Shown: one piece after another, positions 3,170-52,754 of the stretch
Layout of the letters: each line of letters opens with the position of its first letter
Position numbering within the stretch: the stretch's first letter is position 1
NCBI RefSeq assembly: GCF_016904675.1
Contig: NZ_CP070228.1
Location: forward strand, 868,001-932,000
Length of the DNA stretch: 64,000 nucleotides
Source of the DNA: Arcanobacterium phocisimile
GTDB lineage: Bacteria > Actinomycetota > Actinomycetes > Actinomycetales > Actinomycetaceae
Direction: 5' to 3'
Notes under the pieces: generated by a model
Database searches by the model: none
The model's input: the letters and a program-made list of their open reading frames with translations, nothing else
What the model was told of the DNA's origin: nothing
Translations under genes and position numbers: made by a program

Positions 3170-3214
3170 GGATAGGGCACGTGCGAGATAATTCGCACGT
3201 GCCCTATCCTCTTC
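3170..3214 (+). terminator. hairpin terminator after the DUF7455 gene
   Basis: A perfect 17-bp inverted repeat (3170-3186 with 3193-3209, 6-nt loop GATAAT) is followed by a pyrimidine tract TCTTCTTC. A GTG at 3181 that would extend parE lies inside the stem, which argues against it as the real start. Confidence 0.65.
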
Positions 3215-20753: not shown

Positions 20754-20913
20754 ATTCAGTCCTGCGACATATGGGGACATTTAATCGTCAAAACATAACA
20801 ATCTGTCTTGTATTGTGGAATGGTTTTGAGATTGAAGTGTTCATATAGTGGAACAATGCTGTTTCGTGGTGGACGATCGGAGATTTTTGCTGTTAGAGTG
20901 AAGCTACCAAAAC

Positions 20914-20985
20914 GACCTTGGTGACTGGCGGTTCGAGTTGAATTAACAACGTGAAGCCAAGGTTATGATTATCGTCCGTCTGGGT
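20914..20985 (+). promoter_or_regulatory. ZTP (pfl-motif) riboswitch aptamer
   Basis: The stretch has the layout of the ZTP riboswitch. P1 is a perfect 7-bp helix, ACCTTGG (20915-20921) with CCAAGGT (20957-20963). The conserved internal sequence GTGACTGGCGG (20921-20931) follows the 5' strand. A weak hairpin and GTGAAG (20951-20956) lead into the 3' strand. The downstream conserved element CCGTCTGGGTA (20976-20986) can pair with GGCGG to form the characteristic pseudoknot. ZTP/ZMP accumulates when 10-formyl-THF is limiting, and members usually sit before purine or one-carbon genes. Here it precedes purE and the whole purine operon. Recognised by eye, no covariance search was run. Confidence 0.88.
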
Positions 20986-21016
20986 ACATTTCGTTATTGA
21001 GATGTACCCATTTTTT
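20981..21016 (+). terminator. riboswitch-controlled intrinsic terminator before purE
   Basis: A perfect 9-bp stem, TGGGTACAT (20981-20989) and ATGTACCCA (21002-21010), is followed immediately by TTTTTT (21011-21016). The 5' arm overlaps the conserved TGGGTA end of the aptamer, so ligand-stabilised pseudoknot formation and terminator formation are mutually exclusive. This predicts that ZTP turns transcription of the operon on. Confidence 0.85.
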
Positions 21017-21031
21017 GTTTGTGGAGGAAAA

Positions 21032-21529
21032 GTGAAAAAAATTGGCATCGTCATGGGAAGTGACAGCGATCTGCCGGTTATCGAAAAAGCAATTCACTAT
21101 CTACAACAATCCGGAGTCGAATTTACGGTTAACGTTTTTTCGGCTCATCGAACCCCTGATGAAGCCCTATCGTTTGCTCGACATGCAAAAGACAACGGTT
21201 ATGGTGTCATCATCGCAGCGGCTGGAATGGCCGCTCACCTCGCGGGCGTTCTTGCAGCGAACACCGTGTTGCCTGTTATCGGAATTCCATGCACCTCAAA
21301 AACCCTTGATGGCATGGATGCGCTATTGTCCACCGTTCAGATGCCTCCAGGTATCCCGGTGGCCACAGTAGCCATTGACGGAGCAAAGAATGCTGCAATT
21401 CTTGCCTGCCAGATTTTGGCTGTCAGTGATGAACATATCGCTCAAATGCTAACGGAACAGCGTAGGGCTGATTCTCATAATGTTTTAGCGAAAAATATGA
21501 CAATTTCCACCATATATTCAACCAAGTAA
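21032..21529 (+). CDS. purE: N5-carboxyaminoimidazole ribonucleotide mutase / AIR carboxylase PurE
   Basis: 165 residues. Converts carboxyaminoimidazole ribotide (class I) or AIR plus CO2 (class II) to CAIR in purine synthesis. Recognised from the N-terminal MGSDSDLPV, the active-site FSAHRTPDEA, and the IAAAGMAAHLAGV and GIPCTSKTLDGMDALLSTVQMPPGIPVATVAI stretches. GTG 21032 is preferred, with GGAGG at 21023-21027; the longer frame from 21002 starts within the terminator. No purK lies in the window, so whether it is class I with PurK elsewhere or class II is open. First gene of the operon behind the ZTP riboswitch. Confidence 0.93.
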   Translation: MKKIGIVMGSDSDLPVIEKAIHYLQQSGVEFTVNVFSAHRTPDEALSFARHAKDNGYGVIIAAAGMAAHLAGVLAANTVLPVIGIPCTSKTLDGMDALLSTVQMPPGIPVATVAIDGAKNAAILACQILAVSDEHIAQMLTEQRRADSHNVLAKNMTISTIYSTK

Positions 21530-21550
21530 TAACCCAATCATGAAGGAATA

Positions 21551-22246
21551 ATGATGGCTAAAACACTCGTATATTCAGGCAAGACCAAGAACGTTTTCGC
21601 GCTCGAAAATGGCAACTATGAACTGAAGTTCAAAGACGATGTCACCGGTAAGGATGGAGTCTTTGATCCAGGCGAGAACTCCATAGGTCTGACCATCGAC
21701 GGCGTCGGTGCGATTAACTTGAAGATGACCACCTTGTTCTTTGAGATCTTGCAACAGAAAGGCATCAAGACCCACTTCGTTTCTACCAACTTTGACGAGA
21801 CTACAATGGAAGTCATTCCGGCCACGACCTTTGGTAAAGGACTGGAGGTTATCTGCCGCTACAAAGCCGTTGGTAGCTTCCACCGTCGTTACTCTGAATA
21901 CGTTGAACTCGGCGCAGATCTGCCAGCATACGTTGAGATGACTTTTAAGAACGATGCAAAAGGCGATCCACTCGTCACTAAGGATGCCCTCGAAGTCCTC
22001 GGTGTGATGACTGCCGAACAATACGATGCTGTTAAGGAGATGACGCAGCGAATCACCCGTGTAGTTGCCGACGAAATGAATGATCGCGGATTGGACCTCT
22101 ACGACATTAAATTCGAGTTTGGCTACGACAAAGATGGCGAAGTAATCCTTATCGATGAAATCGCTTCTGGCAACATGCGGGTATACAAGGACGGCGTTTA
22201 CGTCGAGCCGTTGGAGCTCAACAAGCTTTTCTTTGCCGCAAAGTAA
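21551..22246 (+). CDS. purC: SAICAR synthetase PurC
   Basis: 231 residues, the short bacterial form. Catalyses ATP-dependent joining of CAIR and aspartate. Shows the N-terminal [14 protein letters not shown] (ATP-binding), [27 protein letters not shown] (the conserved RxxAxGS region) and the [17 protein letters not shown]-terminal motif with acidic residues. Starts at ATG 21551 or 21554, close behind GGAAT. It lies 21 nt after purE. Confidence 0.93.
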
Positions 22247-22256
22247 GGTCATTTAA

Positions 22257-23681
22257 ATGGGCGGTCTGTTTGCTCTCACGTCAGCCAAGGATGTTCAAGA
22301 GGATATCTTTTTTGGCACGGATTACCACAGCCATTTAGGGAACTATCGGGCTGGTTTGGTGGTGTGGGATTCGGAAATGGGATTCCAGCGCGAAATCCAC
22401 AACATTCAACGAGATTCGTTTCGGTCGCGTTTTGCGAACTTCCTCCAAGGCTCACGCGGACAATCAGGCATCGGGTGTATAGCTGATGATGCACCTTCTC
22501 CGTTAATCATTTCATCTCACCTAGGGACGTATGCAATCTGTTTTGTTGGTGCGATTACTAACAGTGCGCAGCTACGTGGCGAATTACTACGTGAAAAAGG
22601 TGTGCTGTTTAATGCACATAGTCAGGGGAGAATTAATCCAACCGAAATACTTTCAGCTCTGATTAATATGAAAGATTCTTTCGAAGAAGGCATAGTTTAC
22701 GCTCAGTCGAAGATCGAAGGATCGTGTAATCTCGCGATTTTGCTTGCGGACGGTTCATTGATCGTTGGCCGTGACAAGCACGGACGGCTACCAATGATTA
22801 TCGGTCGTGACGACGACGGACACGCAGTGAGTTTCGAATCGTTCTCTTTCGAGAAACTTGGATATCGCTATGTCAGTGAGCTTGGTCCGCATGAGGTCGC
22901 AAAGGTCACCCCGCAAGGAGTAGAGCAACTCATACCGCCGCGCGAAGAAATGAAGATCTGCTCGTTCTTGTGGAACTATTACGGATACCCAACATCGACC
23001 TATGAAAACGTCAATGTTGAAATCATGCGTAACCGCAACGGTGAGATCCTTGCCAAGAACGAAACAGATCAGACCCTCTTTGAGCGCCTCGACTACGTGT
23101 GTGGAGTGCCTGACTCTGGCACTCCACACGCGATGGGGTACGCGTTCGAATCAAAAGTTAAATTCGCACGTTGTTATATCAAGTACACGCCAACCTGGTC
23201 GCGTAGTTTCTTGCCACATCTGCAAGGATCGCGCAACGAGATTGCGAAGATGAAACAGGTACCTATCAAGGAGCTCATCAATGCGAAAAACATTTTGTTT
23301 GTTGACGATTCGATTGTTCGCGGTACCCAGCTTCGGGAGACGGTGGAATTCTTAAAAGAGAACGGTGCACAAGAAGTGCATATGCGTTCTGCTTGCCCGC
23401 CAATGATGTACACCTGTAAGTTCTTGAACTTCTCGGTCAGTACAAGCGAAAACGATCTGATTACGCGACGCATTATTCAGCAACTCGAAGGTCCGGAAGG
23501 GCTTGAACATATTGAAGAATATGCCGACCAGCACACCGAACGTGGTAAACGCTTGCGCGAGGTATTAGCTGAACAGTTCAATTTTGACAGTGTCGAGTTT
23601 CAGTCTCTTGAAGGCATTGTTGAAGCTATTGGACTCAACCCGAATAGTTTGTGTACCTATTGTTGGAGCGGAAAAGAATAA
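22257..23681 (+). CDS. purF: PurF-like amidophosphoribosyltransferase with degenerate glutaminase domain
   Basis: 474 residues. The C-terminal phosphoribosyltransferase half is intact, with the PRPP motif VDDSIVRGT (349-357), the flexible loop WSRSFLPHLQGSRNEI and a following MRSACPPMMYTCKF stretch. The N-terminal Ntn domain starts MGGLFALTS where active PurF has Cys directly after Met. Other glutamine-site residues also differ by eye: the usual HVRYPT is GCIADDA, HNGN is FVGA, and the TTSDSE Asp is lost (INPTE). Glutamine hydrolysis is therefore unlikely; it could use free ammonia or a separate glutaminase. I recall similar MGG-FG N-termini in proteins annotated PurF from Clostridia and Bacteroidota, but cannot check. 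Confidence 0.85.
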   Translation: MGGLFALTSAKDVQEDIFFGTDYHSHLGNYRAGLVVWDSEMGFQREIHNIQRDSFRSRFANFLQGSRGQSGIGCIADDAPSPLIISSHLGTYAICFVGAITNSAQLRGELLREKGVLFNAHSQGRINPTEILSALINMKDSFEEGIVYAQSKIEGSCNLAILLADGSLIVGRDKHGRLPMIIGRDDDGHAVSFESFSFEKLGYRYVSELGPHEVAKVTPQGVEQLIPPREEMKICSFLWNYYGYPTSTYENVNVEIMRNRNGEILAKNETDQTLFERLDYVCGVPDSGTPHAMGYAFESKVKFARCYIKYTPTWSRSFLPHLQGSRNEIAKMKQVPIKELINAKNILFVDDSIVRGTQLRETVEFLKENGAQEVHMRSACPPMMYTCKFLNFSVSTSENDLITRRIIQQLEGPEGLEHIEEYADQHTERGKRLREVLAEQFNFDSVEFQSLEGIVEAIGLNPNSLCTYCWSGKE

Positions 23682-23684
23682 GTC

Positions 23685-24728
23685 ATGCGTGATTCACAAT
23701 CGGAAAGCTACAAGAATGCCGGAGTTGATATTGAAGCCGGCTACGAAGTTGTTGCACGAATCCACAAGCACATTAAGAACACCATGGGTGAGCAGGGACG
23801 TTTTGATCACCTAGGTTTTGGCGGCTTGTTGCCACTTAATGTTGCTGATATGACGCAACCGTTGTTGGTTTCGGCCACGGACGGAGTGGGAACGAAACTT
23901 AAGCTTGCTTTCTTACTTGACCGTCACGATACGGTCGGTATTGATTGCGTAGCGATGTGTGTCAACGACGTCTTGTGCGTTGGGGGAGTGCCCATCAACT
24001 TCCTGGACTATATTGCGTGTGGCAAGAATAATCCTGCCAAGATTGAGCAGATCGTCAAGGGGATTACTGACGGCTGTGTACAGGCTGGAATCCCGCTCGT
24101 GGGTGGCGAAACAGCGGAAATGCCTGGCTTCTATCCGAAAGACGAATACGATTTGGCGGGATTCTGCAATGGAATCGTTGATCAAGCTGCGCTCTTGAAC
24201 AAGAACACCGTTCGTGAAGACGACGTCGTGATCGGCATTGCCAGCTCTGGCGTCCACTCCAACGGGTTCTCCTTGGTCCGTAAAATCTTTAATATCAATG
24301 ATGTCGCTGTGCTCGAAGAAACCTACGACGAGCTCGACGGGCAGCGTCTGGGCGACGTCTTACTGACGCCAACGAAGATCTACGTCAAGTCAGTCGCAGA
24401 GTTGCTCAACAAGAAGCTCGTGAAGTCCCTGGCGCATATCACCGGAGGTGGTTTCTACGAAAATATTCCGCGGTCCTTACCAGCCGAGCACGGAGTCGTT
24501 ATCAAGCGTGACGACGTCGACGTCTTGCCGATTTTCTCGTTGATTCAGCAAACTGGCCAGATCTCTAACCGCGACATGTTCAACACGTTCAACATGGGTG
24601 TGGGCATGACGTGCATCGTCGATCCGGCCAATGTTGACCAGGTGCTCAGTATTTTGGCCGAGCACGGCGAGCACGCATATGTTCTTGGTCGCGTCACTCG
24701 TTCGCACACACTCGTCGAACTCGTGTGA
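23685..24728 (+). CDS. purM: phosphoribosylformylglycinamidine cyclo-ligase PurM (AIR synthetase)
   Basis: 347 residues. ATP-dependent ring closure of FGAM to AIR. Recognised by the substrate-binding VSATDGVGTKLKLAF, the DCVAMCVNDVLCVGGVP and LDYIACGK stretches, LVGGETAEMPGFY, and a C-terminal GIASSGVHSNGFSLVR and ITGGGFYENIPR. Only 3 nt separate it from purF, so the two are co-translated or nearly so. Confidence 0.95.
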   Translation: MRDSQSESYKNAGVDIEAGYEVVARIHKHIKNTMGEQGRFDHLGFGGLLPLNVADMTQPLLVSATDGVGTKLKLAFLLDRHDTVGIDCVAMCVNDVLCVGGVPINFLDYIACGKNNPAKIEQIVKGITDGCVQAGIPLVGGETAEMPGFYPKDEYDLAGFCNGIVDQAALLNKNTVREDDVVIGIASSGVHSNGFSLVRKIFNINDVAVLEETYDELDGQRLGDVLLTPTKIYVKSVAELLNKKLVKSLAHITGGGFYENIPRSLPAEHGVVIKRDDVDVLPIFSLIQQTGQISNRDMFNTFNMGVGMTCIVDPANVDQVLSILAEHGEHAYVLGRVTRSHTLVELV

Positions 24729-24737
24729 GGTGTGGCG

Positions 24738-25361
24738 ATGGGATTTACAACAGCGCGGATCGCGGTTCTGCTTTCGGGGAATGGCAGCAACCTTCAAGCG
24801 ATTCTTGATGCGATCTCAGATGGTTCACTTGAGCATGGTCGCGTTGAACTCGTTGTCAGTAGCAACAATTCGGCCCATGGACTTCAGCGTGCACGGCTCG
24901 CAGGAATCCCTACTGCTGTGGTTCGTTCGCGTGATTATGCGTCGCGCGAGGAGTTTGATGCTGCGTTGAGCAACGTCATTGATGATCACCGGATCGATCT
25001 CATTGTGTTGGCCGGATACATGTCCATCCTGAGTGAAAGCTTTGTTTCGCGTTATCCACGCCGCATCGTCAATATTCATCCTTCGCTCATCCCCGCATTT
25101 GCTGGCGAAGGCTTTTATGGACTGAAAGTCCATGAGGCTGCGCTTGCGGCCGGGGTAAAAATTTCGGGAGCAACTGTCCACTACGTCAATGAGGTATGTG
25201 ATGGCGGGGAAATCCTCGAACAAGAAACAGTGCGGATCGAGGGCATTGACCGTGCTGAAGATGTTCAGCAACGGGTGCTGACACATGTAGAACATGTTAT
25301 TTATCCACGCGTAATTGAGCGTCTATCAAAAGAAATTGTAGGTAATCGTGATGACAGATAA
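24738..25361 (+). CDS. purN: phosphoribosylglycinamide formyltransferase PurN
   Basis: 207 residues. Transfers a formyl group from 10-formyl-THF to GAR. Shows IAVLLSGNGSNLQAILD at the N-terminus, LAGYMSILS and the catalytic IVNIHPSLIPAF with Asn/His, plus the Asp-containing GATVHYVNEVCDGG. ATG 24738 is preferred because GAGG lies 6 nt upstream; a GTG at 24732 is the alternative. As a 10-formyl-THF user, it depends on the Fhs moiety encoded further down the same operon. Confidence 0.93.
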   Translation: MGFTTARIAVLLSGNGSNLQAILDAISDGSLEHGRVELVVSSNNSAHGLQRARLAGIPTAVVRSRDYASREEFDAALSNVIDDHRIDLIVLAGYMSILSESFVSRYPRRIVNIHPSLIPAFAGEGFYGLKVHEAALAAGVKISGATVHYVNEVCDGGEILEQETVRIEGIDRAEDVQQRVLTHVEHVIYPRVIERLSKEIVGNRDDR

Positions 25362-26052
25362 CTCCATCGTTTCATACCTTGGGAGCAAGTCGTATCCTGG
25401 CCGAACCCTGGTACTTTCAGTAGCACCGGATGCGAAGACTGCAACAATTGTTTACTTCATTATGGGCCGTAGCGCTAATAGCCAGAACCGTATCTTCGTC
25501 GACGACGGCGAGGTGGTTCGCACTCAAGCGTTCGATGTGTCCAAGGTTGAAGATCCACGCTTGATTATCTACCCGATCTATCGTTACTTCGGTAGCACTC
25601 ACGTTTTTACCAACGGCGATCAAACCGAAACGATCTACCAGGGCTTGACGGCTGGTTTGCTCCCGTCGGAGTCGCTGGAGGGAGGCGAATGCGAGCCGGA
25701 CGCACCGAACTTCACCCCACGCATTTCTCTCGTGGCCCAGCCTGAAGGATACGAGATGAACATTATTAAAGCTGCGGATGCCACCGGAGAGTCCTCGGTA
25801 CACTTTGACTTCCAGTATCCATACATTGCAGGCATTGGTCATTGCATTCACACCTACCGCGAAGATGGCACGCCGCTACCGAGCTTCACCGGCGAACCGG
25901 TAGCTTTCGCTCACGAAGATGGACTCGGAAAGAAAATCTGGGACGCGATCAATCCTGAATTTAAAGTCTCCTTGCTCGAGGCCACTCTTGATCTAGAGTC
26001 ACACGAGATTGTCAATATTTCACTGTTCAACAAGCACGAGGACGTGGCATGA
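25351..26052 (+). CDS. purO: PurO-type IMP cyclohydrolase
   Basis: 233 residues of the IMP_cyclohyd family (PF07826 type), first known from archaeal PurO and found in some Clostridia, not the MGS-like domain of PurH. Recognised from YLGSKSYPGRTLVLS, the highly characteristic IMGRSANSQNRIF, and the NGDQTETIY and EPDAPNFTPRIS stretches. Should close FAICAR to IMP, the last step of the pathway. It replaces the N-terminal half of bifunctional PurH, which the next gene lacks. ATG 25351 overlaps the purN stop; the following gene overlaps it by 4 nt. An unusual enzyme for an actinomycete. Confidence 0.88.
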   Translation: MTDNSIVSYLGSKSYPGRTLVLSVAPDAKTATIVYFIMGRSANSQNRIFVDDGEVVRTQAFDVSKVEDPRLIIYPIYRYFGSTHVFTNGDQTETIYQGLTAGLLPSESLEGGECEPDAPNFTPRISLVAQPEGYEMNIIKAADATGESSVHFDFQYPYIAGIGHCIHTYREDGTPLPSFTGEPVAFAHEDGLGKKIWDAINPEFKVSLLEATLDLESHEIVNISLFNKHEDVA

Positions 26053-27233
26053 AGCAGTTAGAGCTCAAATACGGCAACAACCCACATCAGAAACCAGCAA
26101 GCATCTCGATCAACGATGGACAAGAGTTGCCTTTAACCGTCCTGAATGGAAAAGCAGGCTACATTAATCTTCTTGATGCGCTTAACGGTTGGCAGCTCGT
26201 TCGTGAGTTGAAGGAAGCTACTGGGATGCCAGCTGCCACCTCCTTCAAGCACGTCTCACCGACGTCAGCTGCGATTGGCCGTCCACTTCCAGACGTGTTG
26301 AAGAAGATTTCCTTCGTCGAAGACATCGAAGGCCTCGATGACTCTGCGCTCGCTGGTGCCTATGTTCGCGCGCGTGGCACCGATCGCATGTGCTCCTTCG
26401 GTGACTTTGTGGCCTTGAGCGAAGTATGTGACGTGGTTACTGCTCGCTGCCTCAAGCGTGAGGTCTCCGACGGCGTCATCGCCCCTGGCTACGAGCCAGA
26501 AGCGTTAGAGATTCTGTGCGCCAAGCGCAACGGTAACTACACCGTTTTGCAGATTGATCCGACCTATGAGCCAGCAGAGCTCGAGCACAAGGACGTCTTC
26601 GGTATTACCTTCACCCAGCACCGCAACGATCTCACAATCGATGAGTCGCTGCTGAAAAATATCGTGACCACAAATACTGAACTGTCTTTGGAAAACAAGC
26701 AGGATCTGTTGATCGGCTTGATCACGTTGAAGTACACCCAGTCCAATTCGGTGTGCTACTCCTATCAGGGCCAAGCGATCGGTGTTGGTGCGGGACAGCA
26801 GTCGCGTATTCACTGTACTCGGTTAGCTGGAGACAAGGCAGATACCTGGTTCCTTCGCCAGCATCCACGCGTTCTTGGTCTGCAGTTCCATGACGATTTG
26901 GGCCGGGCTAACCGCGACAACGTCATCGATAGCTACATCAACCAAAACGAAGAAGACGTGTGTGCGCCCGGCGTGTGGGAAAACTACTTCACTGAGCGTC
27001 CGCAGCCGTTGACCGCCGAAGACAAGAAGGAATTCTTGGCAACCTTCTCTGGCGTGAGCTTGGCTTCGGATGCGTTCTTCCCTTTCTCAGACAACATCAA
27101 GCGCGCGGTCAAGAGCGGGGTGTCCTACGTGGTACAGCCTGGTGGCTCAATCCGCGACGATGCGGTTATCGACGAATGTAATGCGCACAATGTCGTTATG
27201 GTGTGCAACGGTGTCCGACTCTTCCATCACTGA
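26049..27233 (+). CDS. purH: stand-alone AICAR formyltransferase (C-terminal half of PurH)
   Basis: 394 residues holding only the AICAR transformylase domain of PurH. Transfers formyl from 10-formyl-THF to AICAR (ZMP). Starts with ELKYGNNPHQKPAS, the usual beginning of the transformylase half, and keeps the catalytic Lys-His pair (K67-H68 in SFKHVSPTSAAIG), RARGTDRMCSFGDF and a conserved RQHPRVLGLQF near the middle. The N-terminal IMP cyclohydrolase domain of about 200 residues is absent, consistent with the purO gene just upstream. Its substrate ZMP is the ligand or ligand precursor of the riboswitch at 20914. Confidence 0.92.
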   Translation: MKQLELKYGNNPHQKPASISINDGQELPLTVLNGKAGYINLLDALNGWQLVRELKEATGMPAATSFKHVSPTSAAIGRPLPDVLKKISFVEDIEGLDDSALAGAYVRARGTDRMCSFGDFVALSEVCDVVTARCLKREVSDGVIAPGYEPEALEILCAKRNGNYTVLQIDPTYEPAELEHKDVFGITFTQHRNDLTIDESLLKNIVTTNTELSLENKQDLLIGLITLKYTQSNSVCYSYQGQAIGVGAGQQSRIHCTRLAGDKADTWFLRQHPRVLGLQFHDDLGRANRDNVIDSYINQNEEDVCAPGVWENYFTERPQPLTAEDKKEFLATFSGVSLASDAFFPFSDNIKRAVKSGVSYVVQPGGSIRDDAVIDECNAHNVVMVCNGVRLFHH

Positions 27234-27245
27234 GAAAGGCCTGGC

Positions 27246-28526
27246 ATGAAAGTTTGTATTATTGGCAGTGGTGGCCGCGAATACGCCATCGCGAAAAAAC
27301 TTATCGTGGATAATCCAGATATTGTCCTTGATGCGGTTCCGGGTAACGACGCCATGACATTTGCGACGATCCATCCCGATATCGCAGCAACTGATATTCC
27401 AGCTATTGTCGATTTTTGTACGGCTAACAGCATTGACCTGTGTGTGGTTGCGCCAGACGATCCGCTGGTTCTCGGATTGGTTGACGCCCTTGAAGACGCC
27501 GGAATCGCCTGTTTCGGACCGCGTCAATGCGGGGCTATGTTGGAAGGCTCGAAGCGTTTCGCGAAGGAATTCATGGTCAAACATGGTATTCCTACTGCGA
27601 GCTATGCAGAGTTTACCGACGTCGAAGAAGCACGTTCGTATGTTCGCCAAGCCTCCTATCCTCTGGTTATCAAAGCAGACGGCCTCGCGTTAGGCAAGGG
27701 CGTTGTGATCGTCCCAGATATGGCTCAGGCTGAAGAGGTTCTTGAGAACTTCATGGTTGATTTGAAGTTTGGTACGAGCTCGGCTGCCGTGATCATTGAA
27801 GAGTTTTTATCTGGTCCAGAGATTTCAGTTTTGGCGTTCTGCGACGGCAAAACCATTAAGCCGATGATTTCGAGCATGGACCACAAGAAGATCTTCGATA
27901 ACGATCGTGGTCCCAACACTGGTGGTATGGGCTGTATTGCGCCAAACCCAGTGTTTACTCCGGCGGTGGCTGAAGAATTCGAGCGCACGATTATGCGCCC
28001 AACCTTAGCTGGTTTGATGGCTGACGGTTTGGATTTCCGTGGCTGCCTCTACTTCGGTTTGATGCTGACGGATAAGGGTGTGCAGGTTATCGAATACAAC
28101 GCACGCTTTGGCGATCCAGAAACCCAAGTTGTGTTGCCGCTGTTGAACTCCAACCTTCTCGATATCTTTATCGCTACCAGCGCTGGCCGCCTTGAGGACG
28201 TCGACGTCGACTTCGCCGATACTCACGCAACCTGCGTTGTTATGGCGTGCGAAGGATACCCAGAAAACCCCATTAAAGGCAACGTTATTTCGTATGAGTC
28301 CGACGTCGAAAACTACCTCGTCTTTGCCGGGGTAAAGCGCAACGAGGATGGCGAACTCGAAAGCTCATCTGGTCGCGTCTTGAACATCCTGGGCTTTGGC
28401 GACTCATTAAACGCGGCGATCGACTCCGCCTATGAGCACGTGAGCCAAGTTTCATTCGCTCACAGCCACTACCGTACTGATATTGGAACCACCGCCCGGG
28501 AAATTGAGGCACACCATGATTTCTAG
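27246..28526 (+). CDS. purD: phosphoribosylamine-glycine ligase PurD (GAR synthetase)
   Basis: 426 residues, ATP-grasp. Joins phosphoribosylamine and glycine. N-terminal [16 protein letters not shown], the ATP-grasp [12 protein letters not shown] loop, [28 protein letters not shown], and the ligand-bearing [15 protein letters not shown] are all present. The C-terminal region is shorter and less typical than in E. coli PurD but complete. It overlaps the next gene by 11 nt. Confidence 0.94.
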
Positions 28527-31500
28527 AATCTACGTCGAAGCACAGCCAGGTAAGAATCCGGCAGCTGAGGGTCTTGTCGAGCATATCCACACCTTCTTAA
28601 ACATAGCGTCAGTCAGAGGCGTGCGGATCATCAACCGCTACGACTGTGAAAATATGACCCCGGAAGTCTTTGCCCAGGCGATCACGAATGTTTTCGCGCA
28701 GCCACCAGTCGATAACTATTTCACCGAACTTGAACTTGGCCCCAACGATCACGTGTTTGCAGTGAGCTATCTGCCAGGCCAATTCGATCAGCGTGCAGAT
28801 AGTGCGGCTGTGTGTATCCAGATGATGGCTCAGGTGGAAAAGCCACGCGTGAGCTATGCCTGTGTCTACGTCATTAGCGGCGACATTACGGATGCAGAGC
28901 TTGCCAAGATCAAAGCCTATCTCATCAACCCAGTTGATTCGCACGAAGTGTCCCTTGAGTTGCCACAATCCCTGGCATTGAACACCACGCCAGCTCAGCT
29001 CATTCCTGAGGTCGAGAACTTTATTTCGATGTCGCGTGAGGAACTGGCCCAGTACCTGGTAGATACTGCGGCTGCGATGGACCTTGCAGATCTGACGATG
29101 GTACAAGAGTACTTTGCTGGCCTGGACCGCAACCCAACCGAAACCGAACTGAAAGTTATTGATACCTACTGGTCCGATCACTGCCGCCACACCACCTTCA
29201 ATACCGCACTCGAAGAGGTCACCATTGAAGATGAGCGCGTAGCACAAACCTACGAATCCTATCTGGCTATCAAAGCCGGGATTAACCCCAACAAGCCGGT
29301 GACGCTGATGAACATCGCAACGATGGCGATGAAGCATTTGCGTGCCGAAGGTAAGCTCAAACAGCTCGATATCAGCGACGAAATCAACGCCTGCACCATC
29401 AAGGTCGACGTCGACGTCGACGGCGAAACCGAAAAGTGGCTGTTGCTGTTCAAGAACGAAACCCACAACCACCCAACTGAAATCGAACCGTTTGGTGGCG
29501 CAGCTACCTGTATTGGTGGTGCAATCCGCGATCCATTATCTGGTCGTGCGTATGTCTACGCAGCCATGCGTGTGACAGGCGCTGGGGATCCTCTGCAAAC
29601 CTTGGATGAGACCCTGCCGGGGAAGTTGCCACAGCGTAAGATCGCCAAGGTTGCAGCTGACGGCTACTCCTCCTACGGTAACCAGATCGGTCTGGCAACT
29701 TCGTTCATCGACGAATTCTATGATCCGTCCTATGCTGTTAAGCGTCTGGAAATCGGCGCGGTTCTCGGTGCAGTCAAGCATTCCGACATTCAGCGTTCGA
29801 AGCCGGAAGCTGGAGACCTGATCGTCCTCATCGGTGGCGCTACCGGCCGCGATGGTATTGGTGGCGCAACAGGTTCATCACGCTCGCACGATGTACGGTC
29901 CGTGAGTGAATGTGGGGCACAGGTCCAAAAGGGTAATGCTCTCGAGGAACGTAAGCTGCAACGCCTGTTGAGAAACCCAGAGGTCACTCGGCTGATCAAG
30001 AAGTGTAACGACTTCGGTGCCGGCGGCGTCTCGGTTGCCATCGGCGAGCTGGCAGACGGCCTACGCATCGATCTCGACCGCGTCTACAAAAAGTACGACG
30101 GCCTCAACGCTACCGAAATTGCGATCAGTGAATCTCAAGAGCGCATGGCTCTCGTCATCGATCCGCACGATCTGTCTGTACTCAGCGAGCATTGTTATGC
30201 CGAAAACGTCGCTATAGCAGTGGTTGCAGAAGTGACCGCAGAACCAGTCTTGACGATGTCCTACATGGGCCAAGAAGTGGTTCACATCGACCGCTCCTTC
30301 CTTGACACCAATGGTGCTCCGAAAGCGATCGACGTCGTTGTTCGCCCAGCTCAAGAAGTGCCGGCAAAGACGGTTACTGACTGGGGTAGCGGTGTGCGCG
30401 AGCTCATGACCGACCTCAACCACTGCTCGAAAGAAGGCCTGATTCAGCAGTTCGATTCCACTATCGGTGCCAATACTGTATTGATGCCGTTGGGTGGAAA
30501 GTATCAGAAGACGCCAACCCAAGCTATGGTTCACAAGTTGCCGGTTCTGACCGGGCAGACGACGACGTGTTCGGTGATGGCCTACGGTTTCAATCCGGAG
30601 ATCAGCAAGTACGATCCGTACCGTAGTGCCTATGATGCAGTGATCGATTCGGTGGCGAAGATTATTGCTGCCGGTGCCGATCCAGACCAGGTCCACCTGT
30701 CATTCCAGGAGTATTTCCCATCCTTGAAGAAGGACAGCGAAAAGTGGGGACTACCATTGGCAAGCTTGATGGGCGCCTTCCAAGCTCAACTTGACTTGGA
30801 CGTGGCTGCTATCGGCGGTAAGGACTCCATGAGCGGTACCTTCGAATCGCTCGAAGTTATTCCAACGCTGGTGTCATTCGCAGTGAGCCTCGGCTCCCTT
30901 GATTCAGTTATTTCGCCAGAGTTCAAGACGGCGGGCAACAAGCTCTACCTGATCGAGCCAACACAGATGAACCGCGAGTATTTCGCGAAGGTTGCCTCGC
31001 TGATTCGCGACGGCAAGATCGTCAGTGCTTACAGCTTGACCGGGTCTTCTGTTTCTGAAGCTGCGGTGAAGATGTCGTTGGGTAATCGCCGCGGTGTTGA
31101 GTTTGCCTCCGGCTTCGATCCGCTCTTGAGCTTCTTGCCAGTACTAGGTGGCTTCTTGTGTGAAGCGACAACCGAGCTTGAGGACGCTGTTCTCCTTGGT
31201 GAGATCAGCGATGAGTTCGTCTTGCGTCACGGGGAAGAGGTTATTGACCTCGCTGCTATCCAGCAGGCCTATGAGGCAACGCTTGAGCCAGTTTACCCAG
31301 TACACGCTGGTGTTGAAGATGATGCGCCACACGCAATCACCGGTTCGGGCGAGACCACGCGTTACACGGGTGAAGCAGTCGCCCGTCCGCGTGTGCTCAT
31401 CCCAGTGTTCCCAGGCACGAACTGTGAGTATGAGACCGCTGCCGCATGGAAGGCCGCTGGCGCCGAACCTGAAGTCATGGTGATCAACAATCTCTCCGTT

Positions 31501-33849
31501 GAAGACATCGAAAAGAGCATCGATCGGTGTGCCAGCGAACTGCGCAAGTCCCAGATCCTGTTCATCCCAGGTGGCTTCTCCGGCGGTGACGAGCCCGATG
31601 GCTCGGCAAAGTTCATCACCTCCTTCATGCGCAACGCGAAGGTTTCGTCGGCAATTACTGAGTTGCTTGACGAACGTGGCGGCCTGATCGGCGGTATTTG
31701 TAACGGATTCCAGGCGCTGATCAAGCTCGGTCTGTTGCCATACGGCAAGATCATGGAACCGGCTGCGGACATGCCTACCTTGACGTACAACTCGATTAAG
31801 CGTCACCAGTCGTCCATCGTTCATGTACGTGTCTCGAACTCTGTGAGCCCTTGGTTGCGTAACGTTGCGCCAGGCGATGTGTTCCAGGTTCCGATTTCGC
31901 ACGGTGAGGGCCGTATCGTCGGTGCTGTTGATGCTCGCAATGTTGCTACCCAGTACGTCAATCTTGACGGTGAGCCAACCAACGAGATCGCGTTCAACCC
32001 GAATAATTCCTTGCATGCGATTGAAGGAATGGTTTCTGACGACGGCCGCGTCTTTGGCAAGATGGGTCACGCAGAGCGTTTCTCTGACGGCTGCTACCGT
32101 AATGTTCCAGGCGACTACGATATGCAGATCTTCGCTTCGGCTGTTGCATATTTTACTAACGAGAAAAGCGAGACTATGGCGCAGTTATCCGATATTGAGA
32201 TTGCTCAGCAGGTCCAGCTCACCCCGATTTCCGAAATTGCGGACGGGCTAGGCATTGCTCCAGATCTCGTCGATCCGTATGGCCGCTGCAAGGCCAAGAT
32301 CGATCTGTCCGTAATTGATGAATCGAAGATTGAGCGAAACAAGTTAGTTCTTGTCACCGCGATGTCGCCAACTCCAGCTGGTGAGGGCAAAACGACGACG
32401 ACGGTTGGCTTAGCAGATGCTCTGCATCAGCTCGGCAAGAACGTATCGATGGCGCTTCGCGAACCATCCTTGGGTCCAGTTTTCGGTCTCAAAGGTGGCG
32501 CGTGTGGTGGGGGATACGCTCAAGTAGTTCCAATGGAAGATATCAATCTACACTTCACTGGCGATTTCCATGCGATTTCCGCAGCCAATAATTTATTAGC
32601 AGCAATGCTCGATAACCATATCTATCAGGGCAACGAGTTGGGGATCAATCCGAAGCGCGTGGTGCTCAAGCGTTGTGTGGATATGAATGATCGTCAGCTT
32701 CGCCATGTTGTTGATGGACTGGGATCTGCTCTTGATGGCGTGAGCCGCGAAGACGGTTTCGAGATCACGGTCGCTAGTGAAGTGATGGCTATTTTCTGCC
32801 TGGCTACCTCAATCACTGACCTGAAAGAGAAACTGGGCAACATGATTGTTGCCTACACCTATGATAAGCGCCCAGTCACAGCCCGCGATCTCGGCGCGGT
32901 TGGTGCGATGACGGCATTGCTCAAAGAAGCGATAAAGCCGAACTTGGTGCAGTCGTTAGAGCATACTCCAGCTATTGTTCATGGTGGTCCATTTGCCAAT
33001 ATAGCGCACGGTTGTAATTCGATTGTGGCAACGAAGCTCTCGCGCAGCTTGAGCGACTACACAGTGACGGAAGCCGGTTTTGGTGCAGATCTGGGTGCGG
33101 AGAAGTTCCTCGATATCATGTGCCGGATTACCGGTACGCGCCCGAACTGTTCGGTTGTTGTGGGGACGGTGCGTGCGTTGAAGATGCATGGGGGAGTAGC
33201 CAAGTCTGATCTGGATCAGGAAAACGTGGAAGCAGTTCGCGCTGGTTTGCCAAACCTGCTCAAACATGTTGAGAACATGATTGATGTGTATCAGTTGCCA
33301 ACAGTTGTTGCGCTTAACTTCTTCCCAACGGACACTGAGGCGGAGATCGCGCTCGTTATCGAGGAATGTGCACGACGGGGCGTCACGTGTGTCCGTTCTG
33401 ATGTGTGGGCGCGCGGCGGTGCCGGCGGTGCTGAGTTGGCTCGCGAAGTTATTCGGCTGTGTGAATTGCCGTCGGAAGTATCGTTTGCGTACGCGGATAC
33501 TGATTCGGTTGAGGATAAGATCCGGTCGCTGGTTCGCCGCGTCTATGGTGGCAGCTCGGTAGAGATTGCACCGAAAGCGCAACGTGTGATTACTACGATA
33601 AACGAATTGGGCCTGGCCCATTTGCCGATCTGCGTGGCAAAGACACAGTATAGCTTCAGCGATGATCCTCGATTATTGGGTTCTCCGCGTGACTTCACCT
33701 TTCGCGTGAAAAATATTAAAGTCAATGCGGGTGCTGGGTTTATTGTGGTGTACACAGGCGATATTCTGACGATGCCTGGGTTACCGAAGGTTCCAGCAGC
33801 GACACGTATCGATGTCGATGATTGCGGCACAATGAGCGGTTTGCTATGA
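28516..33849 (+). CDS. purL-fhs: PurL-Fhs fusion: FGAM synthase joined to formate-tetrahydrofolate ligase
   Basis: 1777 residues in one open frame. Residues 1 to about 1215 are a single-chain, large-type Pur[21 protein letters not shown] and later synthetase motifs, then a glutaminase domain with nucleophile C1062 (GGICNGFQ), the GTNCEYE and SHGEGRIV motifs. Residues 1221-1777 (557 residues, normal full length for Fhs) start [12 protein letters not shown] and carry the P-loop [11 protein letters not shown] (about 1286), [20 protein letters not shown] and LPKVPAA. Linker is only a few residues (YFTNEKSET). Fhs makes 10-formyl-THF, used by PurN and the AICAR transformylase. Caution: one more T in the run at 32151-32154 would give TAC TAA, ending PurL with a normal-looking tail; fhs would then start at ATG 32176. 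The start ATG 28516 has GAGG 7 nt upstream. Confidence 0.85.
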
Positions 33850-34022: not shown

Positions 34023-36701
34023 ATGAGTCTCGATACCTTTCACGCACAATCATCCCTTGAGGTAGCGGGTAAAAAATATACTCTCTACCGGTTAGATGCG
34101 GTGCCAGGTCTAGAAAAACTGCCATATTCACTCAAGGTCCTTGCAGAAAACCTGTTGCGTACTGAAGACGGCGAGAATGTTACGGCACAACATATTCACG
34201 CGTTAGCGCAGTGGGATCCAACTGCCCAGCCTAAAGACGAAATTCAGTTCACGCCTGCTCGCGTTGTGATGCAAGACTTTACCGGAGTGCCATGTATCGT
34301 CGACTTGGCGACGATGCGTGAAACTGTGGCACAGTTAGGCGGAGATCCAGATAAGATTAATCCGCTCAATCCCGCTGAAATGGTTATCGATCACTCCGTG
34401 CAAATCGACGTCTTCGGGCAAAAGAACGCTCTTGAACGCAATATGGATATCGAGTATGGACGCAATCAAGAACGATATCAGTTCTTACGGTGGGGGCAAG
34501 GAGCTTTCGATAACTTCACCGTTGTCCCGCCAGGAACCGGAATTGTCCACCAGGTCAATATTGAACATTTGTCGCGCGTGACCATGACAAACGAGAACAA
34601 CGGAGAAACTGTTGCGTATCCAGACACATGTGTTGGAACCGACTCGCATACCACGATGGTCAACGGTCTCGGCGTCCTCGGCTGGGGAGTGGGCGGAATT
34701 GAAGCCGAAGCTGCCATGCTCGGACAACCCGTATCGATGCTTATCCCACGCGTTGTCGGTTTCAAACTTACCGGCGAGATTCCGGCAGGAGCCACGGCAA
34801 CCGACGTCGTCCTTATTATCACCGACAAATTGCGTCAGCACGGCGTCGTCGGAAAATTTGTGGAATTCTACGGTGAAGGCGTCGCTGCTGTACCACTCGC
34901 AAATCGTGCGACTATCGGCAACATGTCTCCAGAGTTCGGCTCAACCGCAGCTATTTTCCCCATCGACGACGTCACCCTTGACTACCTGCGGCTAACCGGC
35001 CGTAGCGCAGAACAAATCGCGTTAGTCGAAGCCTATAGCAAGGCTCAAGGTCTCTGGCACGATCCGAACAACGAGGCGCAGTATTCCGAATACCTCGAAC
35101 TAGATCTGTCCACCGTCGTGCCATCTATCGCCGGACCAAAACGACCACAAGATCGCATCGAACTCTCTGGCGCAAAGCAAGCCTTCCGAAAAGCCGTCAC
35201 CGCCTACACCGACGATCCAGGCCAGGACCGTCCACACAAGGTAACGCCGATAACTCTCAAGGGAGTAGACACGACAATCGACCATGGATCGGTTGCTATT
35301 GCCTCGATTACCTCATGTACTAACACCTCCAACCCATCAGTGATGATGGCAGCCGGCCTGCTTGCGAAAAACGCGGTTGCCCGGTCACTGACCTCTAAGC
35401 CGTGGGTGAAAACCTCGATGGCCCCCGGATCACAAGTAGTCACCGACTATTATGAAAAGGCCGGCCTATGGCCAGCTCTTGAAGCACTCGGATTCCACTT
35501 GGTTGGTTACGGATGCACCACATGTATTGGTAACTCCGGTCCGCTACCAGAAGAAGTTTCCGCAAAAGCCAACGAAGCAGACCTCGCGGTAGTCTCCGTC
35601 CTGTCAGGGAATCGAAACTTTGAAGGGCGCATCAACCCCGACATTAAGATGAACTACCTGGCCTCTCCACCTCTGGTAATCGCCTACGCGCTAGCCGGAA
35701 CCATGGATATTGATTTCCAGACCGAACCATTAGGACAAGATCCAGAAAGGAACGACGTGTTCCTCGCCGATATTTGGCCAACTCCGCAAGAAGTCCAAGA
35801 AGCGATTGACAACTCAGTCAACCGAGAAATGTTTGTATCCTCGTATGCGGATGTCTTCGCTGGCGATGAGCGCTGGCAAAGTCTCGAAACGCCAACAGGT
35901 GCTACTTTCACCTGGGATCCAAATTCCACCTACGTACGCAAAGCACCATTCTTCGAGGACATGACGATGGAACTAACACCCGTCACTGATATTTCACATG
36001 CCCGCGTATTGGCCAAACTTGGAGATTCGGTAACTACTGACCATATCTCCCCAGCAGGCGCAATTAAGCCAGATTCGCCAGCTGGACGTTACTTAGCAGA
36101 GCACGGAGTAGACCGACGTGATTTCAACTCTTATGGGTCGCGGCGTGGAAACCACGAGGTTATGATTCGTGGAACCTTTGCCAATATCCGCTTGCGCAAT
36201 CAACTGCTTGACGATGTTGAAGGCGGCTACACATACAATTTTCTCACCGGTAAACCAGACTCAATTTTCGATGCCTCCATGGCCTATCAAGAAGCTGGTA
36301 TCCCGCTGGTGGTACTTGGTGGAAAAGAGTACGGTTCAGGATCCTCCCGAGACTGGGCTGCCAAAGGTACTGCACTGTTAGGTGTGAAAGCCGTGATAGT
36401 CGAATCATTTGAGCGAATCCACCGGTCAAACCTCATCGGAATGGGAGTGCTACCGTTACAATTCCCAGATGGTCAAAGTGCCGATTCTTTAGGGCTTAGT
36501 GGTACCGAAACATTCGAGATTACCGGCATCACTGAATTGAACACTGGACGTATCCCAACTACCGTGCATGTCACTGCGCATGGAGAGGGTGGGCGCCGTG
36601 TCGAATTCGATGCTGTCGTGCGCATAGATACTCCAGGCGAAGCGAACTATTTCCGTCACGGCGGAATCTTGCAATACGTCCTACGCTCACTCGCTAAATA
36701 A
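34023..36701 (+). CDS. acnA: aconitate hydratase A
   Basis: 892 residues, AcnA/IRP1 type. Interconverts citrate and isocitrate in the TCA cycle with a [4Fe-4S] cluster. Cluster ligands are C432 (SCTNTSNPS), C498 and C501 ([11 protein letters not shown]). Also visible are [35 protein letters not shown] and a C-terminal swivel domain with [16 protein letters not shown] and [16 protein letters not shown]. Monocistronic by appearance, with a good ribosome site and a palindrome in the upstream region, and a hairpin after the stop. Confidence 0.96.
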
Positions 36702-36751: not shown

Positions 36752-36850
36752 TGCTCTGGACATAGCGCGTAAACTTTATATCTACGACTAGGGAAGAAAT
36801 GTCTATCACTGGTAGTCTAGGAGGGTATGAATGAAGGAGGCTACCGGCGA

Positions 36851-47772: not shown

Positions 47773-47844
47773 TGGGCGGTACTGGGTTCGAACCAGCGAC
47801 CTCTTCGGTGTGAACGAAGCGCTCTACCACTGAGCTAACCGCCC
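47773..47844 (-). tRNA. tRNA-Val (CAC)
   Basis: Cloverleaf on the minus strand. Acceptor arm GGGCGGT pairs with ACCGCCC, the D arm contains GCTCAGTGGTAGAGC, the anticodon stem CTTCG/CGAAG encloses TTCACAC (anticodon CAC), and the T arm is CTGGTTCGAACCCAG. Discriminator A; CCA is not encoded. Divergent from the plus-strand tRNA array. Confidence 0.93.
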
Positions 47845-47994
47845 GCTGAGAAAACTCTCTTATCGAGGATACGACGATAAGGTTATAAATGCCAGTGCGG
47901 CGCACGTGGTGCAGGTCATGTTCTGGTGATTGGACAAGCAGGGTTGAAAGTGGCTATATTTATTGAGCGTCGCAAACGAGTTTGTGACAGCCCA

Positions 47995-48067
47995 GCGGAT
48001 GTAGCTCAGTTGGTAGAGCATCACCTTGCCAAGGTGAGGGTCGCGAGTTCGAGTCTCGTCATCCGCT
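47995..48067 (+). tRNA. tRNA-Gly (GCC), copy 1
   Basis: Acceptor GCGGATG / CATCCGC, D arm GCTCAGTTGGTAGAGC, anticodon loop TTGCCAA (GCC), T arm CGAGTTCGAGTCTCG. Discriminator T. First gene of the array; identical to the copy at 48284. Confidence 0.95.
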
Positions 48068-48098
48068 CGATGGCCGAGCAGGTAACTGCTTACCACGT

Positions 48099-48169
48099 GG
48101 TGGGTTGGCCGAGAGGCGAGGCAGCGGCCTGCAAAGCCGTATACACGGGTTCGAATCCCGTACCCACCT
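48099..48169 (+). tRNA. tRNA-Cys (GCA)
   Basis: Acceptor GGTGGGT / ACCCACC, anticodon loop CTGCAAA (GCA), T arm CGGGTTCGAATCCCG, discriminator T (the identity base for Cys in bacteria). Only Cys tRNA in the window. Confidence 0.94.
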
Positions 48170-48178
48170 CAAATACTA

Positions 48179-48250
48179 GGGCGATTGGCGCAGTGGTAGC
48201 GCGCTTCCTTGACACGGAAGAGGTCACTGGTTCGAACCCAGTATCGCCCA
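48179..48250 (+). tRNA. tRNA-Val (GAC), copy 1
   Basis: Acceptor GGGCGAT / ATCGCCC, anticodon stem CTTCC/GGAAG with loop TTGACAC (GAC), T arm CTGGTTCGAACCCAG, discriminator A. Shares its T arm sequence with the minus-strand tRNA-Val (CAC). Confidence 0.94.
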
Positions 48251-48283
48251 CGGAACCGGCTAAGTTTCACTTAACGGTTGACT

Positions 48284-48356
48284 GCGGATGTAGCTCAGTT
48301 GGTAGAGCATCACCTTGCCAAGGTGAGGGTCGCGAGTTCGAGTCTCGTCATCCGCT
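48284..48356 (+). tRNA. tRNA-Gly (GCC), copy 2
   Basis: Identical in every base to tRNA-Gly at 47995-48067, including the flanking CGA after the discriminator T. It lies 33 nt after the first tRNA-Val, so a Gly-Val unit has been duplicated. Confidence 0.95.
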
Positions 48357-48384
48357 CGAATGCATTATGGAGTAATGCAGGGTA

Positions 48385-48410
48385 GGACTCATATAGTGAG
48401 TCCATTTTTA
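48385..48410 (+). terminator. hairpin between tRNA-Gly copy 2 and tRNA-Val copy 2
   Basis: A 7-bp stem GGACTCA / TGAGTCC (48385-48391, 48397-48403) with a 5-nt loop is followed by ATTTTTATT. This looks like an intrinsic terminator inside the array; the last tRNA-Val would then need readthrough or its own promoter. Confidence 0.65.
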
Positions 48411-48418
48411 TTGAATAT

Positions 48419-48490
48419 GGGCGATTGGCGCAGTGGTAGCGCGCTTCCTTGACACGGAAGAGGTCACTGGTTCGAACCCAGTATCGCCCA
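48419..48490 (+). tRNA. tRNA-Val (GAC), copy 2
   Basis: Identical to tRNA-Val at 48179-48250, with the same A discriminator. It is preceded by an apparent terminator and followed by a strong one. Confidence 0.95.
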
Positions 48491-50109: not shown

Positions 50110-52122
50110 GTGAAGCTCAATATTGATGGTGAAATTCGCGAATTCGACTCGGCGATGAGCGGGATCGAATTTTATTCTCAGCAGCGCTCGATTATCGCGC
50201 TGCGTGTAGACGGAGTGTTGAAGGACCTCAGTACTGATCTCACCTCACTTCCAGACGGCGCAACAGTTGACGGTGTTGATATTAGTGAAGAAGATGGTCT
50301 CAACATCTTGCGCCACTCGGCTACCCACGTCTTAGCGCAAGCTGTGCAACAGCGTTTCCCGGATGTTAACTTGGGCATCGGACCGTTCATCACTGACGGT
50401 TTCTACTACGATTTCGGCAATATCGCTGCGGTTACCCCCGAGATACTTAAGCAACTCGAAAAAGACATGATGCGCATTGTGAAAGAAGGTCAGCGGTTTG
50501 TTCGCCGTCCGATTAGCGATGATGAAGCCCGTGTTGAACTAGCAAACCAGCCGTACAAACTCGAGCTTATTGCGCTCAAAGGTGGCACCGACGCACAAAG
50601 CGATCAGGCTGCCGAGGGAGCTTCCATCGAGGTTGGGGGCGCAGAACTCACTATGTACGACAACGTCCGTCGCAACGGTGAAGTCGTATGGACTGATTTA
50701 TGCCGTGGTCCTCATCTACCAACGACGAAGCTCATCGGAAATGGCTTTGCCCTTACTCGCTCGTCTGCTGCGTACTGGCGTGGTGACCAGGCCAACGATT
50801 CCTTACAGCGTATTTACGGCACAGCTTGGCCGTCGAAAGATGAATTGCGCGCATACCAAGAACGTATTGCCGAAGCTGAGCGACGCGATCACCGTAAGCT
50901 TGGCACTGAGCTAGATCTGTTCTCCTTCCCTGACGAAATCGGTTCTGGTCTTGCTGTTTTCCATCCCAAGGGTGCGGTTGTCCGTATGGAGATGGAAAAC
51001 TACTCACGACAAAAGCATATCGAGGGCGATTACTCCTTCGTTAATACCCCGCATATTACTAAGGGAAACTTGTTCGAAGTCTCAGGACACCTCGATTTTT
51101 ATGCCGATGGTATGTACCCACCCATGCATATGGATGAAGAGCGCGATGCTGACGGTAACATCACTAAGCAAGGCGCTGATTACTATCTCAAGCCGATGAA
51201 CTGCCCGATGCACAATTTGATTTTCAAGTCCCGTGGCCGTTCATATCGAGAATTGCCATTGCGACTTTTCGAATTCGGTACAGTGTACCGCAACGAGGCT
51301 TCCGGCGTGGTTCACGGTTTGACTCGTGCACGTGGCTTCACTCAAGACGATGCGCATATTTACTGCACCCGTGACCAGATGAAGGATGAGCTCACACGAT
51401 TGTTGACCTTCGTTTTGGATCTACTGAAAGATTACGGTCTCGACGATTTCTATCTCGAGTTGTCGACGAAGAACCCGAAGAAGTTCGTCGGTGACGACGA
51501 CGTGTGGGAAGAATCGACTCGTACTCTCCAAGAAGTTGCTGAGGCTTCCGGTCTGGAACTTGTTCCTGATCCTGAAGGAGCAGCATTCTATGGTCCAAAA
51601 ATTTCCGTTCAGGCTAAAGATGCGTTGGGACGCACCTGGCAGATGTCCACAATCCAGCTTGATTTCAACCTTCCAGAGCGTTTTGACCTGGAATACACAG
51701 GTCCTGACGGCGAACGCCATCGCCCGGTTATGATCCACCGCGCCCTATTTGGATCGATCGAACGGTTCTTTGGTGTGCTCACCGAACATTACGCCGGTGC
51801 TTTCCCAGTTTGGCTAGCCCCAGTTCAGGTGCGTTGTGTACCAGTGGCCGATGCGTTTAACGATTACCTCGATTCAGTCGCACAGAAGTTACGCGCTCAT
51901 GGCGTACGTGTCGAAGTCGATAAGTCCGACGATCGCTTCCCGAAGAAGATTCGTAACGCATCAAAAGACAAGATTCCATTCACACTGATTGCCGGTGGCG
52001 AAGATATGGAAGCAGGGGCTGTCTCCTTCCGTATGCGTGACGGTTCGCAAGATAACGGAGTGGCAGTAGATGATGCTGTTGCTCGAATCGTCGAAGATAT
52101 CCGAAACCATTCAAATCAGTAG
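50110..52122 (+). CDS. thrS: threonyl-tRNA synthetase
   Basis: 670 residues, class II aaRS. N-terminal TGS domain ([18 protein letters not shown]), editing domain with H69-x3-H73 (HSATHVLA) and the later Cys of [10 protein letters not shown], catalytic core with motif 1 and the zinc Cys near 366 (MNCPMHNL), motif 2 [26 protein letters not shown] and motif 3 ([19 protein letters not shown]), and the anticodon-binding C-terminus. GTG start with GGAGG 6 nt upstream. No T-box leader was found upstream. It starts a run with the PIM genes, 8 nt before pgsA. Confidence 0.96.
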
Positions 52123-52130
52123 GGAATCCG

Positions 52131-52754
52131 ATGCTTTCTCGCAGTGGTCGACCATTTGCTCAGCTCGTTTTTGGTCCAGTTGCTAGATTATTTGTCCGCT
52201 TGGGCATTAGCGCCAATATTGTGACCTGGGTAGGAACTATCCTCTCGTGCTTTTCCGCACTATATTTCCTGCCAAACAATATGCTTATCACTGGTGTTGT
52301 CCTTACCGGTGTGGTGCTAGTGTTCGACAATCTTGACGGGCAGATTGCGCGACTGACAAAAACGAGCTCAGCATGGGGTTCGTTTCTGGACTCAACGCTT
52401 GACCGAGTCACCGATGCGGCGGTATTTGCATCGATCGCAATCTGGGGTTATCTTCACGGCCAGGCGGATGTTGCGCCATGGGTGATGGGAGGTGCAATTG
52501 CGGCTGGGTTAATTGGCAGTGTTGTTCCATACGCGCGAGCAAAAGCAGAAAGCATCGGTTGCTCGGCAGCCATTGGTTTCGCCGAGCGGGCAGACCGCCT
52601 CGTGATGGCGGCTATCGTGACAATAGCCGTTGGTGTCGGAGCCCCCCATTGGGTGATGGCTATCGGTATGTGGGCGTTGGCCTTATTGGCAGCAGTCACG
52701 GTTTTGCAACGCATGTTGTATGTGCGTCAGCAACTTCAAGAACGCGGTGAGTGA
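52131..52754 (+). CDS. pgsA: CDP-alcohol phosphatidyltransferase (phosphatidylinositol-phosphate synthase)
   Basis: 207 residues, membrane protein with about six hydrophobic segments. The CDP-alcohol motif is complete: D66-x2-D69-G70-x2-A73-R74-x8-G83-x3-D87-x3-D91. Position next to the PIM acyltransferase and PimA identifies it as the actinobacterial enzyme that joins CDP-diacylglycerol and inositol-1-phosphate to start PI and PIM synthesis. It overlaps the next gene (TGATG). Confidence 0.9.
   Translation: MLSRSGRPFAQLVFGPVARLFVRLGISANIVTWVGTILSCFSALYFLPNNMLITGVVLTGVVLVFDNLDGQIARLTKTSSAWGSFLDSTLDRVTDAAVFASIAIWGYLHGQADVAPWVMGGAIAAGLIGSVVPYARAKAESIGCSAAIGFAERADRLVMAAIVTIAVGVGAPHWVMAIGMWALALLAAVTVLQRMLYVRQQLQERGE

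Follow-up and report, generated by a model that had tools for sequence, protein, structure and literature searches.

The window, a stretch of 64,000 nucleotides from Arcanobacterium phocisimile (contig NZ_CP070228.1, positions 868,001 to 932,000), carries a purine cluster headed by a ZMP/ZTP riboswitch and closed by the purL-fhs pair (Table 1). The names of purM and purD derive from sequence and position only, as does that of purF, whose sole domain match is GATase_7. IMP synthesis is split in this cluster (25348-27233) between an IMP cyclohydrolase-like gene of PF07826 and a stand-alone AICAR formyltransferase (NF005492), with no bifunctional PurH; archaeal PurO models match the IMP cyclohydrolase-like gene far below cut-off only.

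Table 1. Features of the purine cluster and of the purL-fhs junction (positions in the window)
Feature	Position	Strand	Basis or remark
ZMP/ZTP riboswitch heading the purine cluster	20911..20992	+	Rfam RF01750, 51.8 bits, gathering 39
purE, purC, purF, purM, purN, IMP cyclohydrolase-like, AICAR formyltransferase, purD	21002..28526	+	Co-directional, upstream of purL
PurL (FGAM synthase, predicted) part, codons 1-1215	28516..32160	+	TIGR01857; 0 gaps versus three relatives
GAG codon, proposed site of purL stop loss	32161..32163	+	Stop in relatives
Linker codons AAA AGC GAG ACT, formerly the 12-nt intergenic spacer	32164..32175	+	Junction DNA
Fhs part, ancestral ATG to stop	32176..33849	+	PF01268, NF010030

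Positions 28516-33849 of the forward strand form a single open frame of 1777 codons from ATG 28516. This ATG is also the first codon of the stretches aligned in genomes G008 and G005, of the same genus, and G027, of another genus of the same family; the entry in the ORF list (28483-33849, forward strand) begins upstream of it at a TTG. An earlier note on this DNA had read the frame as a complete PurL running into a complete Fhs (formate-tetrahydrofolate ligase), which full-length profile matches uphold. Residues 4-1213 match the whole model of the large single-chain PurL type well above cut-off (TIGR01857, model positions 2-1239 of 1239, 1613 bits for a cut-off of 1057) and carry the C-terminal glutaminase domain (PF13507, residues 957-1213, profile 1-260 of 260). 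The difference from other proteins of this type is that 29 other junctions stop at or near this point, whereas the chain of the window continues into Fhs. Residues 1224-1776 match NF010030 (model positions 3-556 of 557, 868 bits for a cut-off of 652), Pfam agrees (PF01268), and the nearest solved sequences are those of Fhs (5a4j, 1eg7). Likeness to these monofunctional enzymes extends over their full length and includes the motif TPAGEGKTT at residue 1286 of the fused frame, which we take to be the ATP site, but their N-terminus is free and here it is tied to PurL via EKSET. Fhs is a homotetramer. The whole genome, a single contig of 1,988,065 bases, holds one match to PF01268 and one to TIGR01857, both in the fused frame, and a search with these two models found no second copy of purL or fhs. 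Given the full-model matches and the single match per family, both genes are complete and neither has a spare in the genome. Residues 951-1777 were modelled as one chain with AlphaFold2, from an alignment of 41 rows that combined the window with 6 pieces from G008, G005 and G027 and with 34 pieces taken from 112 candidates. The model is weak, with a mean pLDDT of 71.1, a pTM of 0.62 and values below 50 at the join (model residues 260-282).

The operon is followed by an aconitase-like gene, named by eye (34023-36701), with 84-88% identity to counterparts in G005, G006 and G008 and no match in G001 and G003, of the same genus, nor in G027. Further downstream lies a six-tRNA cluster (47773-48490; Val, Gly, Cys, Val, Gly, Val) in which the Gly-GCC and Val-GAC genes are duplicated.

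The junction in related genomes

The junction DNA reads GCA TAT TTT ACT AAC GAG AAA AGC GAG ACT ATG, with the T-run 32151-32154 and ATG 32176 at the positions given by the earlier note. Relatives were found with residues 1096-1395 as query against 79 genomes, that of the window included; besides the own genome, end-to-end matches came from G008, G005 and G027. All three align to the whole fused frame (1777/1777 codons, 0 gaps) and have a lone internal stop, which is codon 1216 in each case: TAA in G008 and G027, TAG in G005, and GAG in the window. G004 and G007 have TAG in the same column, and their spacers of 13 and 11 nt put fhs in another frame than purL. The five closest relatives keep the frame of the window through the T-run (AYFT, AYFR or AYFA) and an in-frame TAA or TAG ends purL one codon further on. 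Since the alignment is free of gaps and the stops of the relatives fall in one column, the junction frame of the window is the ancestral one. On this alignment, the purL stop was lost by substitution 12 nt before fhs, and the simplest single step would be TAG to GAG at 32161.

The loss of one nucleotide from the T-run, either as a real frameshift or as a sequencing slip, had been put forward in the earlier note as an equally possible origin of the join, because adding one T places a stop directly after AVAYFY. Such a loss would need an extra base before the junction in the relatives. None is there in G008, G027 or G005, whose 1777 codons align with 0 gaps, and the present frame continues in them; the stop codon was substituted instead. 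We therefore reject the T-run loss as extremely improbable. The earlier note had also expected relatives with a stop between purL and fhs to speak against a fusion. Such relatives were found, yet they do not make the fusion absent from this genome, only derived and lineage-specific.

Spread of the pair and history of the operon

Among 110 loci with an Fhs match, 31 carry on the same strand an upstream PurL C-terminus no more than 600 bases away. The window accounts for two of them, and a stop stands between purL and fhs in all 29 other adjacent junctions. In a survey of 394 clostridial genomes (the order of G635, E <= 1e-90, a threshold that favours pairs sharing one frame), 28 were matched, each match spanning both genes and carrying at least one internal stop (28/28). 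The two sets overlap, G634 and G635 containing loci L032 and L040. Of seven further genomes reached via loci, four have matches that span both genes, with a stop in 4/4; these four again belong to the loci of the adjacency sample. An established PurL-Fhs fusion family was thus sought and not found, the same stop-free join occurring in 0/29 other junctions and 0/28 clostridial spanning matches. Among the matches listed, there is no second stop-free purL-fhs match in 213 genomes of the family and none elsewhere in 396 genomes drawn from the phylum (own genome included in both); both listings end before the weaker matches, and a distant fusion could be missed. Viral contigs gave 0 matches to the junction. 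Among the paper titles listed by literature searches, none names a PurL-Fhs fusion, which does not prove that the literature lacks one. As far as these comparisons reach, the fusion is derived and observed in one genome only.

Of 22 clostridial loci examined (e.g., L032, L040, L048), 21 have the order AICAR formyltransferase-purD-purL-fhs, and the remaining one, L107, is cut off inside purL. This shared order (26049-33849) suggests that the complete set passed between phyla long ago. Within the family, the purine genes of G044 (L127) include no fhs next to purL, and its fhs lies elsewhere. The genes of the purine operon are 79-92% identical to those of G027 (loci L122, L123), whereas the threonyl-tRNA synthetase, assigned by its domains (50110-52122), shares 70% identity with that of G027 and 92-93% with those of G008, G005 and G004. 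This disparity in identity indicates that the purine operon (20911-33849) probably moved between genera. It is also patchy within the genus: among nine genomes searched with the PurL-Fhs query, G001, G003 and G006 gave no match and G002 has only a distant PurL (49%).

Stop loss in the genome or in the record

We favour, with fair confidence, the hypothesis that a natural point substitution in the purL stop joined two in-frame neighbours into a PurL-Fhs chain of 1777 residues, probably near-neutral and with little or no coupling. One wrong base in the record is a possible alternative: by a base-calling or assembly error, one substituted base would hide a true stop at 32161-32163 and thereby make a pair of ordinary genes look fused. 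A single base may indeed decide the matter, every other adjacent pair read has a stop, the fused state occurs in this genome only, and selecting findings for their oddity favours errors. Against such an error stand the quality of the genome (a single contig, completeness 100, contamination 0.02), the integrity of the neighbouring frames and the frequency of natural changes at comparable sites.

The integrity of the frames was assessed on 37 window genes (725-52754), chosen for matching G008, and all 37 align to G008 in one piece without frame break. Leaving out purL-fhs and 52131-52754, which reaches the limit of the retrieved sequence, the stop is shifted by 1 to 6 codons relative to G008 in 5 of 35 genes, so natural stop turnover occurs here. 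The stops of relatives were also mapped inside the other window ORFs of at least 190 aa. Several lie within the first 22 residues (G008 at 3181, 7422 and 16781; G005 at 36827) and would reflect start codons placed too far upstream in the ORF list; G005 has one inside purN, at residue 205 of 209, four residues from the end. Among all these stops, that of purL alone sits deep inside a frame. Of the 3321 sites on which the three relatives concur, 225 are different in the window (146/2273 in purL, 79/1048 in fhs), so that a change at the purL stop needs no special rate. In finished genomes, substitution errors are rare, orders of magnitude below the level of lineage-specific substitution seen here. 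Given that stop positions change from one of these species to the next and that the other frames of the window are intact, we rank natural stop loss above a base error, which we consider unlikely.

Differences from G008 fall mostly in third codon positions (134/67/661 for positions one to three in purL, 62/41/305 in fhs), an excess that would be as expected for two constrained genes. Only these codon-position differences were used, because dN/dS comparisons with the relatives met saturation at synonymous sites (dS of -1 or above 1.6).

Predicted products and meaning of the fusion

The two genes would be co-transcribed, and with the purL stop lost ribosomes would now read through into fhs, giving a fusion with the five-residue linker EKSET whose two halves would fold and act on their own. 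In five relatives, fhs starts 11-13 nt past the purL stop. The fhs ATG (32176) persists in the window, together with a weak Shine-Dalgarno-like stretch within the linker codons and the preceding GAG. The anti-Shine-Dalgarno duplex at this start, computed with an assumed 16S tail sequence, has an energy of -5.9 kcal/mol, as compared to -4.8 to -9.2 in the five relatives and -5.4 to -10.7 at seven other starts of the window. With this ATG and weak ribosome-binding site retained, part of Fhs may still be made separately, and the likely products would be the fusion plus some separate Fhs. For E. coli gene pairs, PMC10666635 describes a steep fall of reinitiation as the spacing grows (by 40-80% at +14 nt in three pairs) and, for pairs at +9 to +12 nt, room for a Shine-Dalgarno sequence with a likely independent start or coupling by RNA structure.

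The fusion itself may entail little or no catalytic coupling and be near-neutral, or act only by holding the two enzymes at a constant ratio. PurL uses FGAR, glutamine and ATP, and neither folate nor 10-formyl-THF. The proposal in the earlier note that the fusion couples 10-formyl-THF supply to PurL is at odds with this textbook chemistry: as PurL takes no folate, Fhs makes nothing that it could hand on directly to PurL, and direct channelling is not indicated. The users of 10-formyl-THF encoded here are PurN (24732-25361) and AICAR formyltransferase (26049-27233). The benefit, if any, would be a fixed stoichiometry or the production of 10-formyl-THF near these two enzymes.

A selected bifunctional PurL-Fhs, fixing the enzyme ratio or bringing Fhs to an assembly of purine enzymes near PurN and AICAR formyltransferase, would fit the location of both genes in a single purine cluster headed by a ZTP riboswitch and the adjacency of purL and fhs from Clostridia to this family. 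It is very improbable given that the fusion is in one genome only, that PurL itself has no use for folate, and that the linker shows no sign of having evolved for its role, being the translated former spacer, whose length matches that in three relatives. It is likewise improbable that a functional PurL-Fhs, whose link is advantageous through fixed stoichiometry or through drawing 10-formyl-THF synthesis to a bacterial purine-enzyme assembly, is fixed in the species and is observed here shortly after one stop-codon loss gave rise to it. The fusion is in none of the examined relatives, so there is no sign of selection for keeping it.

Known fused enzymes offer two points of comparison. Eukaryotic C1-THF synthase has an Fhs-like C-terminal domain within a multifunctional chain, where its partner is a folate enzyme (dehydrogenase/cyclohydrolase); the Fhs-type C-terminal domain is common to both, but the partner here is PurL, which does not use folate. 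The histidine-operon fusions described in PMC1963479 also turn adjacent genes of one pathway into one chain. There, however, the fusions are spread over lineages, partly by horizontal transfer, whereas PurL-Fhs is in one genome.

PurL and Fhs are ordinary enzymes, and their join is found nowhere else in this analysis. We privilege the reading in which the fusion is probably real and probably near-neutral, the join being probably a recent evolutionary accident rather than a new kind of enzyme. A base error would matter for annotation only. If real, the fusion is a clean case of the birth of a two-domain enzyme from in-frame operon neighbours by one base change, with intact parts and with the earlier, unjoined state preserved in close relatives. 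It would then offer a simple test of how well Fhs tolerates a large partner at its N-terminus and of whether a link to the supply of formyl-folate benefits bacterial purine enzymes.
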